Shown here: positions 1,152 to 6,398 of the stretch, piece after piece
Layout of the letters: every line of letters starts with the position of its first letter
Numbering within the stretch: the stretch's first letter is position 1
NCBI GenBank assembly: GCA_022072255.1
Contig: JAJVHZ010000108.1
Location: forward strand, 1 to 37,902
Length of the DNA: 37,902 nt
Source: Gammaproteobacteria bacterium
Lineage (GTDB): Bacteria; Pseudomonadota; Gammaproteobacteria; JAJPIJ01
Direction: 5' to 3'
Notes under the pieces: model-generated
Seen by the model: the letters and a program-made list of their open reading frames with translations, nothing else
Told to the model about the DNA's origin: nothing
Databases searched by the model: none
Program-made: the position numbers and the translations under genes

Positions 1152-2510
1152 GTGCCCGCACAGGACGCGAGCGTGTCGCTGTGCAGCCTGGTTCGCGAGG
1201 CGCTCGCCAGCCTGCCGCCCCCCTGCCACTCGGCCCTGGCCGTGGCCTACAGCGGTGGGCGGGACTCCACCGTGCTGCTGCACGTCCTGCGGGAGATCGC
1301 CGCACCCGGCACCATCCGCGCAATCCACGTCCACCACAACCTCCATCCCCTGGCCGAGCGCTGGGCGGATCTCTGCGCCCGACAGTGCGCGGAGTGGAAT
1401 ATTCCTCTCGAGCTGCTGCGCATCGACGCGCGCCCGCCGCGCGGGGAGAGCCCGGAGGCGTGGGCGCGCCGTGCCCGCTACGAGGCCCTGGGCGCGGCGT
1501 TGAGGCAGGGGGAGGCGTTGCTCACCGCCCATCACCAGCAGGATCAGGCCGAGACGCTGTTGCTGCAGCTCGTGCGCGGGGCCGGGCCGGCGGGCCTGTC
1601 CGCGATGCCGCGGCTGACGGGATTGGGCGGGCGTCCTCACCTGCGGCCGCTGATCGACGCGCCGGCGAGCCTGATCGCCGATTACGCCGGCGAGCGACGC
1701 CTCACCTGGGTCGAGGATCCCAGCAACGCGGAGACCCGCTATGACCGCAACTTCGTGCGCCGCCGCGTCCTGCCGGTGCTGGAGGAACGATGGCCGCGCG
1801 CGGCCGCGACGGTGGCGCGTGCCGCGACCTGGCAGGCGGAGGCCGCGGACCTGCTGCACACGCTCGCCGGGGTCGATCTCGCCGCCGCCGCCGGCGCCAC
1901 GCCGCACCGCCTGAGGCTGGAGGCGCTGACGGCATTGCCGGCGTCCCGGCGCCACAATCTGCTGCGTGGCTGGCTGAAGGGGCTGGCCTTGCCGCTGCCT
2001 TCGGCGGCGCAGTTGCGGGAGGTCGACCGCATGCTTGCCGCGCGCCGCGATGGCGCCGGCTGCACGCGCTGGCGCGGCGTGGAGCTGCGGCGCTTCCACG
2101 ACGAGCTCATCGCGATGTCGCCCCTGCCGCGCTTCACGCCGGGCGGTCCCATCCCCTGGCGCCCGGGCGAGCAGGGCCTGTGGCTTCCCGCCGGCACGCT
2201 GACCGCCAGCCGGCGCCGCGGTGGAGGACTGGCCCAGTCGGCGCTGGCGGGGCGGCGGACCTCGGTACGCTACCGCGCCGGGGGGGAGAGGCTGCGGCTG
2301 CGCGCCGCAGGGCCGGCGCGGCCGCTGAAGCTGCTGCTGCAGGAGTGGCGGGTCCCGCCGTGGCTGCGCGATCGGCTGCCGCTGCTGTACCTCGAGGATG
2401 CGCTGGCGGCGGTGGCCGACCGGGCGATTGCCGCGGAATTCCAGGCGGGGCCAGGCGCGGAGGGCTGGGAGCTGGAGTGGGCCTGGAACGCGGCGCACGC
2501 GCCGCCGTGA
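1152..2510 (+). CDS. tilS: tRNA(Ile)-lysidine synthetase
   Basis: Modifies C34 of the CAU-anticodon isoleucine tRNA to lysidine using ATP and lysine, changing both its codon reading (AUA) and its charging. The PP-loop ATP-binding motif SGGRDST lies at residues 34-40, followed by the TilS segment THHQQDQAET-like (AHHQQDQAETLLL) and the DPSNAETRYDRNFVRR region that contacts tRNA. The product is about 452 residues, close to the 430-450 usual in gammaproteobacteria, including the C-terminal substrate-binding domain. The start is uncertain: GTG at 1152 is used here, but GTG at 1173 is in frame with CAGGA seven bases before it. The gene converges with the FHA gene, with only seven bases between the stop codons. 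Confidence 0.94.
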   Translation: MPAQDASVSLCSLVREALASLPPPCHSALAVAYSGGRDSTVLLHVLREIAAPGTIRAIHVHHNLHPLAERWADLCARQCAEWNIPLELLRIDARPPRGESPEAWARRARYEALGAALRQGEALLTAHHQQDQAETLLLQLVRGAGPAGLSAMPRLTGLGGRPHLRPLIDAPASLIADYAGERRLTWVEDPSNAETRYDRNFVRRRVLPVLEERWPRAAATVARAATWQAEAADLLHTLAGVDLAAAAGATPHRLRLEALTALPASRRHNLLRGWLKGLALPLPSAAQLREVDRMLAARRDGAGCTRWRGVELRRFHDELIAMSPLPRFTPGGPIPWRPGEQGLWLPAGTLTASRRRGGGLAQSALAGRRTSVRYRAGGERLRLRAAGPARPLKLLLQEWRVPPWLRDRLPLLYLEDALAAVADRAIAAEFQAGPGAEGWELEWAWNAAHAPP

Positions 2511-2517
2511 AGGGCGG

Positions 2518-3087
2518 CTATTCGCCGCGGGTGGTGAATTTGAAGGTCAGATCGCCGACGTCGATGATGTCGCCATCGGCGAGCGGCGCGTTCTTGACCT
2601 TGCGATCGTTGACGAACACGCCATTCAGCGACTCCATGTCCGTGATCTCGTACAGGCCATCCTTGCGCAGGGTGATCTGGGCATGCCGGCGCGAGATCGA
2701 TGGATGCTTCAGGACGACCTCGTTGCGCTCGGTGCCGCGTCCGATGCGGCAGGGGGTATGCAGGATCTCGTGACGGATTCCATCGCCGCCCTGTTGCAGC
2801 AGATAGACGTGGCTGGAGACCGTCGGGGCGCCGGGTATCGCCACGGCTGCCGCGGCATTCAGCGGCGCCGAGCCGCGGCGGCGGCGCTGCAGCCGGCTGT
2901 AGATGATCAGCGCCGCCAGTACCCCCAGCAGGAAGGCAGCCGGGATGGCATACCAGACTCCCTCGGCCGCGCCGGAGGCCGGGCCCGTGCCCATGTCCCC
3001 GGCCCATCCCACGGTCGCGAGCGCCACCGCTGCCAGCGCGGCGGCGGGCGCGAACTGCCGGGTGAGGCGGTAATGCGTTGATATCAT
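2518..3087 (-). CDS. Membrane-anchored FHA-domain protein
   Basis: A 189-residue protein with an N-terminal hydrophobic segment (about residues 10-28), a second clear membrane span around residues 45-65 (YAIPAAFLLGVLAALIIYS), and a C-terminal forkhead-associated domain from about residue 90. The FHA signature is complete: CRIGRGTERNEV, then HPSISRRHAQI, then SLNGVFVND. FHA domains bind phosphothreonine peptides, so the protein probably senses or recruits a phosphorylated partner at the inner membrane; no kinase is encoded nearby. ATG at 3087 is chosen because GGAG precedes it by nine bases; an in-frame TTG lies at 3108. It sits 93 bases downstream of the ExbB/ExbD-like block on the same strand and may be its last gene. 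Confidence 0.85.
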   Translation of the reverse strand: MISTHYRLTRQFAPAAALAAVALATVGWAGDMGTGPASGAAEGVWYAIPAAFLLGVLAALIIYSRLQRRRRGSAPLNAAAAVAIPGAPTVSSHVYLLQQGGDGIRHEILHTPCRIGRGTERNEVVLKHPSISRRHAQITLRKDGLYEITDMESLNGVFVNDRKVKNAPLADGDIIDVGDLTFKFTTRGE

Positions 3088-3179
3088 CGCTGAAAACTCC
3101 GACGCCAAGCATAACAGAGACGGCGCGCCGCGCGACGGCGTCTGCCGCGCGGCCGGACCCGCAGCCCTTCCGCGACCCG

Positions 3180-3671
3180 CTACTTCTCCGGGAACAGCGG
3201 GTCAGGCATGTCGAAAAACTGCAGATCGACCTCGAGCCTGCCCGTTACCACGTTGCGGACGAAATCCGTCTCCCCGAGCTGCGGCAGATTCTTGCGCAGC
3301 TTCTTGCTTGCCTCGTTGAGCTTGTTGTGCAGAGCCGGCGTGTAGGGGACCTTGTACGCGCGGGGAATGTTCTTGCCGATCTGCTGCTCCATGTCGGTCA
3401 GCCAGAGATAGATTATGCCCTTGGCCTGCGTGTTCTTGTTCGGCTCATCGACGTGGATGCCGATCAGGTTGAAACGCTTCGGCAGCCGGATCCCGGTCGG
3501 CCAGCCGATGAGCGGCGAGTAGGAGATGGCGGTCGAATACGTGAGCGCCGCGACGCCGACGATCGCCAGCCCCTTGATCGTCCAGTTCCAGCGCGTGCGC
3601 GTCAGCAGCACGAGGAGCAGCAGTGCGAGCACGAGGTAGGCGAAGATGATCCCGGTCATTCCCCAGTTCAT
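3180..3671 (-). CDS. Two-span membrane protein, copy 2 of a tandem paralogous pair
   Basis: Unrecognised family. The 163-residue product starts with two hydrophobic segments (about residues 5-25 and 32-52), then a soluble domain containing GWPTGIRLPKRFNLIGIHV, a stretch ending IIYLWLTD, and a basic, helical part (PRAYKVPYTPALHNKLNEA) ending in VDLQFFDMPDPLFPEK. The core aligns with the gene immediately upstream (4317-3739) over the GWP...LPKRF.LI...V.EP and WLTD...PRAY segments, so the two arose by duplication. The start at 3671 has GGGAAG about 12 bases upstream; an in-frame ATG lies at 3659. It probably belongs to the same operon as the ExbB/ExbD-like genes and acts at the inner membrane; function unknown. 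Confidence 0.8.
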   Translation of the reverse strand: MNWGMTGIIFAYLVLALLLLVLLTRTRWNWTIKGLAIVGVAALTYSTAISYSPLIGWPTGIRLPKRFNLIGIHVDEPNKNTQAKGIIYLWLTDMEQQIGKNIPRAYKVPYTPALHNKLNEASKKLRKNLPQLGETDFVRNVVTGRLEVDLQFFDMPDPLFPEK

Positions 3672-3738
3672 GGTTTGGTGTCTTCCCGTGAAAGCGTTTG
3701 CGCGCGCGGCAGGTCGTCTCGTCGTTCTCCGGCCGATC

Positions 3739-4317
3739 CTAGGGCGCCGGCGGCGGCGGAGCGTCGTCACCCGTGGGCGCCGGCATCTCGGCGGTCTTCG
3801 ACGGCGGCGCCTCGGGCGCGGCGTCGAAGAACTTCACCGTGTACTTGTGCGACTTCGCGCCCTGGCGCTCCTCACCGGGTTTGCCCATCTTCTTCAGATC
3901 CAGCTCGTCCCCCGAGACCGCCTCGCCGACCTGTGGCACGTTCTTCTGCAGCTTGGCGCGCGCCTCCTTGGCACGGGCGTGCAGCTCCGGCTCGTAATCG
4001 AGCCGGTAGGCGCGCGGCACGACGCTGTTGCCGGTCTTGTCCGTCACCCAGAAGAAGACGTTGCCCCTGGCGCCGGTGATCCTGTCGGGCTCCTGCACGT
4101 AGAGCGCGATGAGACCGAAGCGCTTCGGCAGATCGTCGCTGGAGGGCCATCCGAGCAGCGGCGGAAAGGCGAAGTAGAGCACAAGGTAGGCCGCGGAGGC
4201 GGCCACGAGGAGCAGGGCCTTCATCAGCCAGGACAGCGTGGAGAAGATGTTGAGCCCGGCGAGCACCGCCGTCAGCACGACGTATGCGGCTATCAGTTGC
4301 GCTATTCCCAGAGTCAT
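3739..4317 (-). CDS. Two-span membrane protein, copy 1 of a tandem paralogous pair
   Basis: Unrecognised family, 192 residues. Two hydrophobic segments lie at about 5-25 and 32-55, followed by GWPSSDDLPKRFGLIALYV, a stretch ending NVFFWVTD, PRAYRLDYEPELHARAKEA and KLQKNVPQVGEAV. These match the downstream paralogue in the same order. This copy has an extra proline- and alanine-rich C-terminal tail (ending PAPTGDDAPPPPAP) after the shared VKFFDA element. It begins only seven bases after the stop of the ExbD-like gene, so the two are almost certainly co-transcribed. The repeated pairing with channel-type genes suggests the two paralogues form a hetero-oligomer or an accessory ring; this is inference. 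Confidence 0.82.
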   Translation of the reverse strand: MTLGIAQLIAAYVVLTAVLAGLNIFSTLSWLMKALLLVAASAAYLVLYFAFPPLLGWPSSDDLPKRFGLIALYVQEPDRITGARGNVFFWVTDKTGNSVVPRAYRLDYEPELHARAKEARAKLQKNVPQVGEAVSGDELDLKKMGKPGEERQGAKSHKYTVKFFDAAPEAPPSKTAEMPAPTGDDAPPPPAP

Positions 4318-4324
4318 GCCGGCC

Positions 4325-4948
4325 TCAGCTCCTGTGGAAGATGCGGGTGGTGAGCGACTTCTCGATGCGGTTGATGTTCGACAGTTTCCCGTCCTGATCG
4401 ATGGTGAAGCGCACGGCGGTCTTCTCGTCGCCCGGCTTCTCGAGCTTGATGGTGCCGTAGTAGATCACCTCGAGCTGCGGATTCACCTTGTCGACGCGGA
4501 CGTTGACGTCCACGGGCTTGTTGTCCTCGGAACCGTAGTAAAAGATGTTGACGACGTACTCGCCCACGACGGTTCCGCGTATGGTCACCACCTCCTGGTT
4601 CAGCGGATTCTGCACCGTCTGCCCGTTGATCGTCAGCGTGTCGTTGACGTTGCCGCGATCGTCGCGGTCCAGGTGGATCAGCCCGGCCTCCTTGCTCTGG
4701 AACCAGACCAGGTTGCCGTCGGGCTCCTCCACCCAGGTGTCGATGTCGTTCGGATTGTTGTCCGGCCACTGCACCGTGATGATGTACTCGGCCTTCGGGT
4801 CGATGATGCCCTTCTTCGCCACCGGGTTCATGAAGATGACCGAGAGGATGAAGAAGAAGGTCAGCGCCTGGATGATCTTGAACAGCACCGCCGTTATCGG
4901 GTCGAACGGCTGCTGAAACTTCGACTTGGAGCTGAGGCGGAGCGGCAT
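4325..4948 (-). CDS. ExbD-like single-span protein with a DUF2135-like periplasmic domain
   Basis: A 207-residue protein with a short basic cytoplasmic N-terminus, one membrane span (about residues 18-41, AVLFKIIQALTFFFILSVIF) and a periplasmic region. The topology matches ExbD/TolR/MotB partners of proton channels, and the gene directly follows an ExbB/TolQ-like gene. The periplasmic part contains DIDTWVEEPDGNLVWF followed by an Asp-rich stretch (HLDRDDRGN), resembling the Asp-rich beta-sandwich of YfaP/DUF2135 proteins and not the peptidoglycan-binding fold of MotB. The usual membrane Asp of ExbD/TolR is absent: Lys24 occupies roughly that position and Asp16 lies outside the span. Role in energy coupling is inferred only from context. 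Confidence 0.75.
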   Translation of the reverse strand: MPLRLSSKSKFQQPFDPITAVLFKIIQALTFFFILSVIFMNPVAKKGIIDPKAEYIITVQWPDNNPNDIDTWVEEPDGNLVWFQSKEAGLIHLDRDDRGNVNDTLTINGQTVQNPLNQEVVTIRGTVVGEYVVNIFYYGSEDNKPVDVNVRVDKVNPQLEVIYYGTIKLEKPGDEKTAVRFTIDQDGKLSNINRIEKSLTTRIFHRS

Positions 4949-4968
4949 ATCGCAGGGCGACGCGGGTA

Positions 4969-5715
4969 CTACGAATCTGCTTTCAGCCGTGGCCAGAGGC
5001 GCACTTCAGTCAGGTCGATGGTGTTTTCAAGAAGTTCATCCAGCCCGCGGCCGAGGAGGTAGTACGGCACCGAGAGCAGAATGCCGCACACCAGGCTGAC
5101 CAGCGTCGTGTTCAGCGCGGTGCTCATGCCGTGACTCATCTGCTTGAGCACCCGCTGCATCATGCTGGCGTCGAGCAGCTCCTGCTGCGACACCGAGCCC
5201 AGCATCCAGATGAAGCCGATCAGGGTGCCCAGGAACCCGACCTTCAGGTTGAAATCGATCAGGAACCAGCCGAACTCGTTGGCGCCCCGGATCTTGGAGG
5301 CATAGGCCTCGAGGATGTCGTTGCGCGACTCCGCGGGCTTGCCGGCCTCCGCGCTCAGCTGCTTGGTGCGCACCAGGTCGAGCAGATAGCGCGAGATGAA
5401 GCCGTCTGGCAGAATGCCGCCGCCGATCTGCACGCGTCCGTGCGCGACGCTGACCGGGGCCTCGGCGCTCTGGCTGTCCAGCACCTGGCGCGACCGTGCG
5501 AGCAGATTGAGCTCACCCGACAGTATCCAGGTGCGCCACATGGAGTGGATCACGCCTACGGCGTAGATGGCGATGACGGCGACGCAGATGAAGCTGTGAT
5601 CGTTCTCGACCATCTCCTGTATCAGGCCGTTGTCCCAACTGACGACGATGCCGAAGGCAATCAGGCCGGTGGTCAGCAACCACACGAGAAACAGGAAATG
5701 TTCGGTCTTGTACAT
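4969..5715 (-). CDS. MotA/TolQ/ExbB-family channel-like membrane protein
   Basis: A 248-residue inner-membrane protein. Predicted spans lie at about 5-27, 40-60, 150-175 and 195-222, separated by a cytoplasmic loop of roughly 85 residues, the layout of the MotA/TolQ/ExbB family. The conserved third span (LKVGFLGTLIGFIWMLGSV) and fourth span (MSTALNTTLVSLVCGILLSV) keep the Thr residues that line the proton path in ExbB/TolQ. It is the first gene of a leftward block with an ExbD-like protein 20 bases downstream. Members of this family use proton flow to drive a periplasmic or outer-membrane partner. Neither a TonB-like nor an OmpA-like partner is encoded here, so the output of the complex is unknown. 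Confidence 0.85.
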   Translation of the reverse strand: MYKTEHFLFLVWLLTTGLIAFGIVVSWDNGLIQEMVENDHSFICVAVIAIYAVGVIHSMWRTWILSGELNLLARSRQVLDSQSAEAPVSVAHGRVQIGGGILPDGFISRYLLDLVRTKQLSAEAGKPAESRNDILEAYASKIRGANEFGWFLIDFNLKVGFLGTLIGFIWMLGSVSQQELLDASMMQRVLKQMSHGMSTALNTTLVSLVCGILLSVPYYLLGRGLDELLENTIDLTEVRLWPRLKADS

Positions 5716-5891
5716 GGTGCGTCCGGCTCTTCTGGACTGTTCGATGTCGCCAGCGCATCGGGGCTGGACTTACGGTTCGCGACGGGGTCGGCTGCGGAGT
5801 ATACACGCACAGTTACGGTACGCCGCAAGTCGGACTCCGGCGCCCGGCCGGGGCCCGTGCCCGGCGTCCCGGGGCGCTACGGGCCGGCCGG

Positions 5892-6398
5892 CTACGGCGC
5901 GGGTGCGGTCGCCGGCACCGCCGTCACGGGGGCGTCTTTCTCCAGCGCGAAGGCGGCGATCTCCCGCAGTGTCGAGTTCATTCGTCGCGCGAAGGCCACC
6001 ACGCGCGCATCCGGATGATTTTCGGGCAGAAGAATGACGCTGATGACGGTCTGGCCGGCGCCGGCGTGGACGGTTATGCGGCAGGGCATCATGGCGATGT
6101 AGCCGGGGTCGTACTCCAGCACCTCGCGGGCCACCGCGAGGCTGCAGAAGTGGATGACCTCCATGTCCGGGAAGTTCTCGTAGCCGCGCTCACGCATCGC
6201 GGAACCGACCTTGTTGTACCCGGTGATGCGGAAATTGCGCTCGGTGATCGCGAACTCCAGCTCCTCGACCACATCGGCAAAGGGCTTGTCCGTGACATAA
6301 CGGACCACCGTGCCGGTGCTCTCCGCAGCGCCCGCGGGCGGAGACTTGGAGCATGCCGCCCCCAGCAGGAGCAGCAGCACGAGCAGCGCGAGGCGCAT
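5892..6398 (-). CDS. DUF302-domain lipoprotein
   Basis: A 168-residue protein with a lipoprotein signal peptide (hydrophobic run then LLGAAC, Cys16), so it is probably anchored in the outer membrane facing the periplasm. From about residue 33 it carries a DUF302 domain: VVRYVTDKPFADVVEELEFA, the conserved IxGYN (RITGYNKVG) and FCSLAVAREVLEYDPGY, ending with the PCRITVHAGAGQTVIS strand. DUF302 proteins have no firmly established reaction; some occur with sulfur- or redox-linked genes. The tail is Ala/Pro-rich. It lies 21 bases after the L,D-transpeptidase-like gene on the same strand, suggesting one transcript. Confidence 0.88.
   Translation of the reverse strand: MRLALLVLLLLLGAACSKSPPAGAAESTGTVVRYVTDKPFADVVEELEFAITERNFRITGYNKVGSAMRERGYENFPDMEVIHFCSLAVAREVLEYDPGYIAMMPCRITVHAGAGQTVISVILLPENHPDARVVAFARRMNSTLREIAAFALEKDAPVTAVPATAPAP

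Follow-up and report, generated by a model that had tools for sequence, protein, structure and literature searches.

A candidate ion-driven envelope motor module with an ExbB-like channel, a DUF2135-like shaft domain and a two-span partner, encoded by bacteria and phages

What kind of machine is encoded where an ExbB-like channel gene stands among partners outside the familiar motor families? The question is raised by positions 2,518 to 5,715 of contig JAJVHZ010000108.1 (GenBank assembly GCA_022072255.1), a stretch of 37,902 nucleotides from a gammaproteobacterium that is called the window here. The original prediction had described a leftward five-gene block encoding a MotA/TolQ/ExbB-like channel, an ExbD-like single-span protein, two paralogous two-span proteins (the twins) and a membrane FHA protein, possibly a proton-driven envelope device with a phospho-dependent regulator. 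With moderate confidence, we propose that three core genes, those of the ExbB-like protein, the ExbD-like protein and a twin, form a module of the 5:2 type, an ion-driven motor or gated channel that works on the cell envelope, whose stoichiometry, ion flow, force, partner and role we infer. All five predicted genes were recovered in their places on the minus strand:

4969..5715, minus strand: ExbB/TolQ/MotA-like channel subunit P0001, 248 amino acids (aa), PF01618 match
4325..4948, minus strand: ExbD-like single-span protein P0002, 207 aa, periplasmic domain at residues about 53-200, DUF2135-like and TerD-fold-like
3739..4317, minus strand: twin A (P0003), two-span, upstream copy, 192 aa, without the C-terminal PDPLFPEK motif
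3180..3671, minus strand: twin B (P0004), two-span, 163 aa, small beta-barrel (OB-like) soluble domain, C-terminal DMPDPLFPEK kept
2518..3087, minus strand: membrane FHA protein P0005, 189 aa, hydrophobic N-terminus, second span, FHA domain with GR, SRRH and NG motifs

The gaps from the ExbB-like gene through the ExbD-like, twin A and twin B genes to the FHA gene are 20, 7, 67 and 92 bases, the last having been predicted as 93. The channel half belongs to a known family, as had been supposed: P0001 scored 31.7 bits against Pfam MotA_ExbB (PF01618), whose cut-off is 22.9. Its pore-type threonine columns, Thr164 and Thr204, are conserved in the alignment of cellular and phage proteins; Thr204 is present in all ungapped rows, cellular and viral alike, and both threonines are retained in nearly all phage proteins. 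Searches of Pfam, NCBIfam, PADLOC and PHROGs gave nothing noteworthy for P0002, P0003 and P0004. An Rfam scan of the window found no RNA family, and a scan of positions 2400-6000 found no promoter and terminators only at chance level.

The recurrence of the gene order is far beyond chance. P0002 was found in 8 of 56 relatives, and when 398 genomes from the whole phylum were searched with its profile, 17 matched. Scanning the GTDB species genomes yielded 192 encoding stretches. The 80 retained came almost entirely from gammaproteobacterial metagenome-assembled genomes, two being alphaproteobacterial; with some 20 further loci, these make up a set of about 100 cellular loci. There, on the same strand, the ExbB-like gene lies directly upstream of the ExbD-like gene in 97 and a twin directly downstream in 95, with operon-like median gaps of 4 nt (ExbB/ExbD) and 15 nt (ExbD/twin) and a third median gap of 14 nt. 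In the 398 genomes, the twin profile matched 14, each time beside an ExbD-like gene and never apart from the pair; the predicted cohesion of the twins with the ExbB/ExbD-like genes thus held, and twin homologues living mostly away from ExbB-like genes, which would have spoken against it, were not seen. Two metagenome-assembled records titled Klebsiella pneumoniae (L037, L038) carry the module and cluster with uncultured gammaproteobacteria, so that their titles look wrong. On Azospirillum megaplasmids (L184, H21-H27), ExbD-like sequences lie at two widely separated places per plasmid; upstream of the one that was read there is an ExbB-like gene, and the records list no gene there.

The same three genes are carried by phages. 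A tblastn search with P0002 returned 27 Rhizobium/Sinorhizobium phage records, with 33-41% identity among the matches listed. In four of these records, the match is the middle one of three consecutive 'hypothetical proteins' of about 145, 200 and 150 aa, a triplet recognised by the ExbB, ExbD and twin profiles. Two overlapping IMG/VR scans gave 28 and 58 contigs; about 60 contigs hold the three-gene unit, annotated as hypothetical where annotation was read. ExbB, ExbD and twin follow in this order in all 85 listed viral loci uncut by a contig end, some contigs being counted in both scans. Against PF01618, one tested phage ExbB-like protein passed the cut-off (35.9 bits), and that of a Rhizobium phage fell just under it (20.1). 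The minimal unit is therefore the three genes ExbB, ExbD and twin, as phages carry them, and FHA is an accessory. Some phage copies, though not most, have a gene for a lysozyme or an M15 peptidase or a holin-like gene nearby, and we do not claim a role in lysis. Three further loci deserve mention: L135:8711-10702 (the locus of G246), prophage-like, where a divergent ExbB/ExbD/twin set lies near genes that look holin-like and endolysin-like by eye and have no Pfam match; L183:9817-11250 (Rhizobium phage RHph_I1_18), where a DUF2828/DUF7788 protein annotated as vWA follows about 1.8 kb after the module, past a five-tRNA cluster; and the viral contig locus L155:8672-9451, where a radical-SAM-like gene separates the ExbD-like gene from the twin gene.

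The predicted structure of P0002 consists of a single helix (residues 17-40) and a beta-rich domain. DUF2135 (PF09906) matched 15 of 47 relatives of the protein (best 6e-5), with P0002 itself unmatched; one close relative, L191, exceeded the Pfam cut-off (22.3 versus 22), and hhalign of the ExbD-like profile with DUF2135 gave an E-value of 3.5e-6. Judged from these profiles, the periplasmic domain appears to be kin of DUF2135. Its predicted fold is nearest to that of TerD, a calcium-binding fold: in VIA-align comparisons of the modelled domain, the four best PDB matches, with Z 8.2-9.9 over 127-139 residues, were all TerD-type; next came a further two at Z 7.8, and the remainder were at or below 5.6. 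Asp68, Asp70 and Asp96 are invariant across 134 relatives, with Asp94, Asp97 and Asp103 nearly so; the three invariant residues suggest putative metal binding. Neither Foldseek against the PDB, which gave no significant match for the ExbD-like or twin model, nor a PDB sequence search with the two profiles, which returned nothing useful, added to this picture.

No Pfam family matches the twin. The AlphaFold2 model of twin B (mean predicted local distance difference test score 89) places membrane helices at residues 3-25 and 30-55 and folds the soluble part into a small barrel, which, by the positive-inside rule applied to TRTRWNWTIK between the helices, would be periplasmic. VIA-align gave Z scores of 7.2 at most, with the OB-folds of eIF5A and SSB, a likeness that may reflect just a common barrel. 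Twins A and B are 38% identical over 157 columns (E 2e-32). In two-twin loci, PDPLFPEK is kept by 12 of 13 downstream twins and lost by all 13 upstream ones, and the two copies have thus diverged.

Genes of other kinds gather around this core. Upstream of the ExbB-like gene, the window encodes two probable accessories:

5892..6398, minus strand: DUF302-domain protein with a lipoprotein-like N-terminus, PF03625 44.2 bits
6420..7070, minus strand: L,D-transpeptidase (YkuD), PF03734 83.9 bits

A DUF302 gene occurs in 41 related loci at a median gap of 18 nt from the ExbB-like gene (176 nt in the window), and an L,D-transpeptidase gene on the same strand in 47, so that the unit probably extends upstream to both. 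The commonest full order, L,D-transpeptidase - DUF302 - ExbB - ExbD - twin - FHA, was seen in 24 loci; in 28, the three core genes stand without L,D-transpeptidase, DUF302 or FHA. Downstream, an FHA gene is present in 42 cellular loci, mostly encoding a protein of some 500 aa in which a vWA domain, a span and an FHA domain follow one another (505-509 aa in the relatives from L018/L019). P0005 has an intact FHA domain (70.5 bits, Pfam) without the vWA domain of its relatives, and the window's relatives G002 and G003 carry the vWA-FHA form. In six loci of a genus of another class, probably alphaproteobacterial and with genomes of 6-9 Mb, a metallophosphoesterase and a Ser/Thr kinase follow the module in place of FHA; at L125:6673-8853 and five similar loci, the kinase has a universal-stress-protein domain and the phosphoesterase is calcineurin-like. 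A lipoprotein-like gene after the twin in about 11 loci (L022:5200-5916, DUF3108-like; L123:10172-10885) is an alternative accessory to FHA. The predicted phospho-dependent regulator is therefore supported by the FHA and kinase/metallophosphoesterase loci, as an accessory outside the minimal unit.

In the motor model, five ExbB-like chains would form a ring, threaded by the single helices of two ExbD-like chains, whose periplasmic part would be a beta-sandwich of DUF2135/TerD-like type that possibly binds calcium. With its two helices and small periplasmic barrel, the twin would serve as motor partner or transmission, replacing TonB/TolA. The output, directed at the cell wall or outer membrane, would most likely consist of mechanical work or of a conformational signal. 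Many hosts may tie this output to peptidoglycan cross-linking through the L,D-transpeptidase and to phospho-signalling through the vWA-span-FHA protein or the kinase and phosphatase; phages would carry the bare three-gene motor, plausibly altering the host envelope during infection.

Several observations weigh against this model. First, the ExbD family PF02472 did not match P0002 at E-values up to 1, and the three PF02472 loci of the window genome lie elsewhere; the kinship of P0002 with ExbD thus rests on topology, motif and partner gene. Secondly, TerD (PF02342) failed as a sequence relative of the shaft domain (hhalign probability 1.6 and 0.4, nothing found), leaving a match of fold only, and VIA-align Z scores below 10 may reflect a common arrangement. 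Thirdly, the proximity of the L,D-transpeptidase and DUF302 genes could in part be synteny by descent, given that the opposite flank, with tilS, accA and dnaE, is conserved as well. Lastly, the window copy lacks the proton-binding shaft-helix aspartate that is essential in ExbD, TolR and MotB, and has Ala20 instead:

4877..4891, minus strand: ExbD-like helix residues 20-24, with Ala20 (GCG, 4889-4891) and Lys24 (AAG, 4877-4879); Asp16 lies at 4901-4903

The transpore aspartate has been reported as absolutely required in ExbD, TolR, MotB and PomB (PMC12905483). Among the 134 relatives, position 20 is Asp in 105, among them every phage row, Ala in 17, the window copy being one of these, and Val in 10, all from the kinase-bearing genus and a neighbour. 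In most relatives, Asp20 stands in a PFTD context resembling the PLVD of an ExbD protein elsewhere in the window genome. Position 24, one turn after position 20, is Asn in most relatives and Lys in the window. Asp16, one turn before, never varies among the 47 cellular sequences of alignment A2; it is kept in the window and absent from most phages. The epithet 'proton-driven' is thus doubtful for the window copy, with Ala in place of the ExbD-type Asp, while most relatives keep the residue. With Asp20 replaced by Ala, Asn24 by Lys and the twin duplicated in its clade, the coupling of the window copy must differ; Asp16, a Lys-based switch or a gated sensor instead of a motor are conceivable alternatives.

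Copies of this Ala20/Lys24 (A/K) type form a clade of 16 with branch support of 100/99, L034 being an outlying A/K row. Two twins occur in 13 of 17 A/K loci compared with none of 71 cellular loci of the Asp20/Asn24 (D/N) type, an association that is not independent evidence because essentially one clade is involved. The window copy is a derived variant, and its twin pair is a late duplication in one clade, most relatives being single-copy. The tree of ExbD-like proteins needs two A/K changes and one V/K clade. In L034, the helix and the ExbB-like protein are of the A/K type, while the whole ExbD-like protein groups with the D/N types, a pattern that suggests recombination inside the ExbD-like gene. 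Since the L034 ExbB-like protein also carries the Ser207 and Pro217 found in A/K partners, recombination is as likely as convergence, and independent origins of the Asp loss were not established.

The loss of Asp20 in two kinds of clade also bears on the best-surviving rival, which we consider rather unlikely though worth keeping in view: the ExbB/ExbD-like pair would be a sensor rather than a motor, detecting envelope damage or tension and signalling to the cytoplasm via the twin together with either the vWA-span-FHA protein or the kinase/phosphatase, by analogy with ZorAB, which is thought to sense likewise in Zorya. FHA or kinase/phosphatase genes being the commonest downstream accessories, the 25 kinase-domain matches in the window genome and the weak likeness of P0001 to ZorA (PADLOC, 2.9e-4) are all consistent with such a sensor. 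However, the phage triplets keep Asp20, usually without an adjoining FHA or kinase gene, and no Zorya effector was recognised among the module proteins.

A device for superinfection exclusion in phages, blocking rivals, and for anti-phage defence in bacteria is improbable. Like exclusion genes, the module occurs in phages and is patchy in hosts (6 of 54 genera among the relatives; the 17 of 398 genomes above), but PADLOC holds no matching system beyond the weak ZorA, and about 50 loci, in many gamma hosts, sit in a stable tilS, accA, dnaE neighbourhood rather than in defence islands. Least probable is a decaying or repurposed motor whose ion-driven function is gone: despite Ala20 and the missing vWA domain of the FHA protein, all frames of the window module are open, Lys24 and Gln27 accompany the loss of Asp20 in all 27 Ala/Val cases, the ExbB-like partner shows matching changes (Ser207 and Pro217 in 16 of 16 A/K-type proteins) and the well-supported clade of 16 keeps its proteins conserved, so that the variant looks re-engineered rather than decayed.

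Returning to the motor model, we tentatively extend it to a broader claim, to which we give somewhat less credence than to the model itself: that phages encode complete ion-driven envelope motors shared with bacteria, and that some bacteria swapped the motor Asp for a Lys-containing helix, an alternative means of driving or gating such a motor. The 5:2 motors described to date are few (Mot/Pom, Exb, Tol, Gld, Agl, Zor), and more are expected in recent papers. Both the shaft domain and the partner of the module would be new, its phage form is very small (ExbB-like protein of about 150 aa), and its presence in isolated Rhizobium phages makes its function readily testable. The natural Asp-to-Ala-plus-Lys variants bear on whether the transpore Asp is the sole means of coupling ion flow to such a motor, and dozens of phage loci and nearly 200 bacterial ones, until now 'hypothetical protein', gain a hypothesis that can be tested.

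The original prediction had placed the layout outside Tol, Exb, Mot, Agl/Gld and Zorya, and indeed no named 5:2 system fits. In the open-licence literature, we found neither a description of the gene combination nor one of such motors in phages; ExbB/ExbD-type proteins are reported to bear many appendages that lack an explanation (PMC12505986), and the passages available from that paper are silent on this one. The nearest published idea concerns motor-linked vWA force transducers and TPH-vWA pairs (PMC12204202, 2025): in Proteobacteria, vWA proteins are encoded next to tolQ-like motor genes and are predicted to be driven by the proton motive force. The architecture differs: here a vWA domain is followed by a span and FHA in an accessory protein only, and the shaft carries a DUF2135-like domain instead of vWA. 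TerD tellurite-resistance proteins share the predicted fold of the periplasmic domain and its Asp-rich loops; this is a likeness of structure only, with no sequence-profile match, and the TerD proteins read are without a membrane helix.

Like ZorAB, the module pairs a remote MotA/ExbB-family A subunit, with its weak PADLOC ZorA match, with a B subunit made of a span and a periplasmic part. Unlike ZorA, the window ExbB-like protein is short, without the long tail, and PADLOC matched none of the five proteins to ZorB, ZorC, ZorD or ZorE. The membrane FHA partner recalls GltG, an FHA protein that partners the TolQ-type motor AglRQS in Myxococcus gliding (PMC3169522). However, GltG has a TonB-like C-terminus, and Agl has two PF02472 ExbD/TolR proteins and no twin-type protein; P0005 reached 39 bits against the GltG model (cut-off 650), over the FHA part only, and the locus has one ExbD-like gene, so that an Agl/Glt assignment fails. 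The A subunit belongs to a family common to Exb, Tol, Mot, Agl, Gld and Zor. With ExbB-ExbD and TolQ-TolR, the module shares the MotA/TolQ/ExbB-family subunit, the single-span PFxD-type partner of most members, the pore threonines and the adjacency of the genes. It differs in lacking PF02472, in its DUF2135/TerD-like periplasmic part, in the loss of the Asp in the window clade and in a two-span partner replacing TonB/TolA: the 53 twins examined for the SHLS motif of the TonB/TolA type have no invariant or near-invariant His, and the twin has two membrane helices. The module is a system distinct from Tol, Ton, Mot, Agl/Glt and Zorya.

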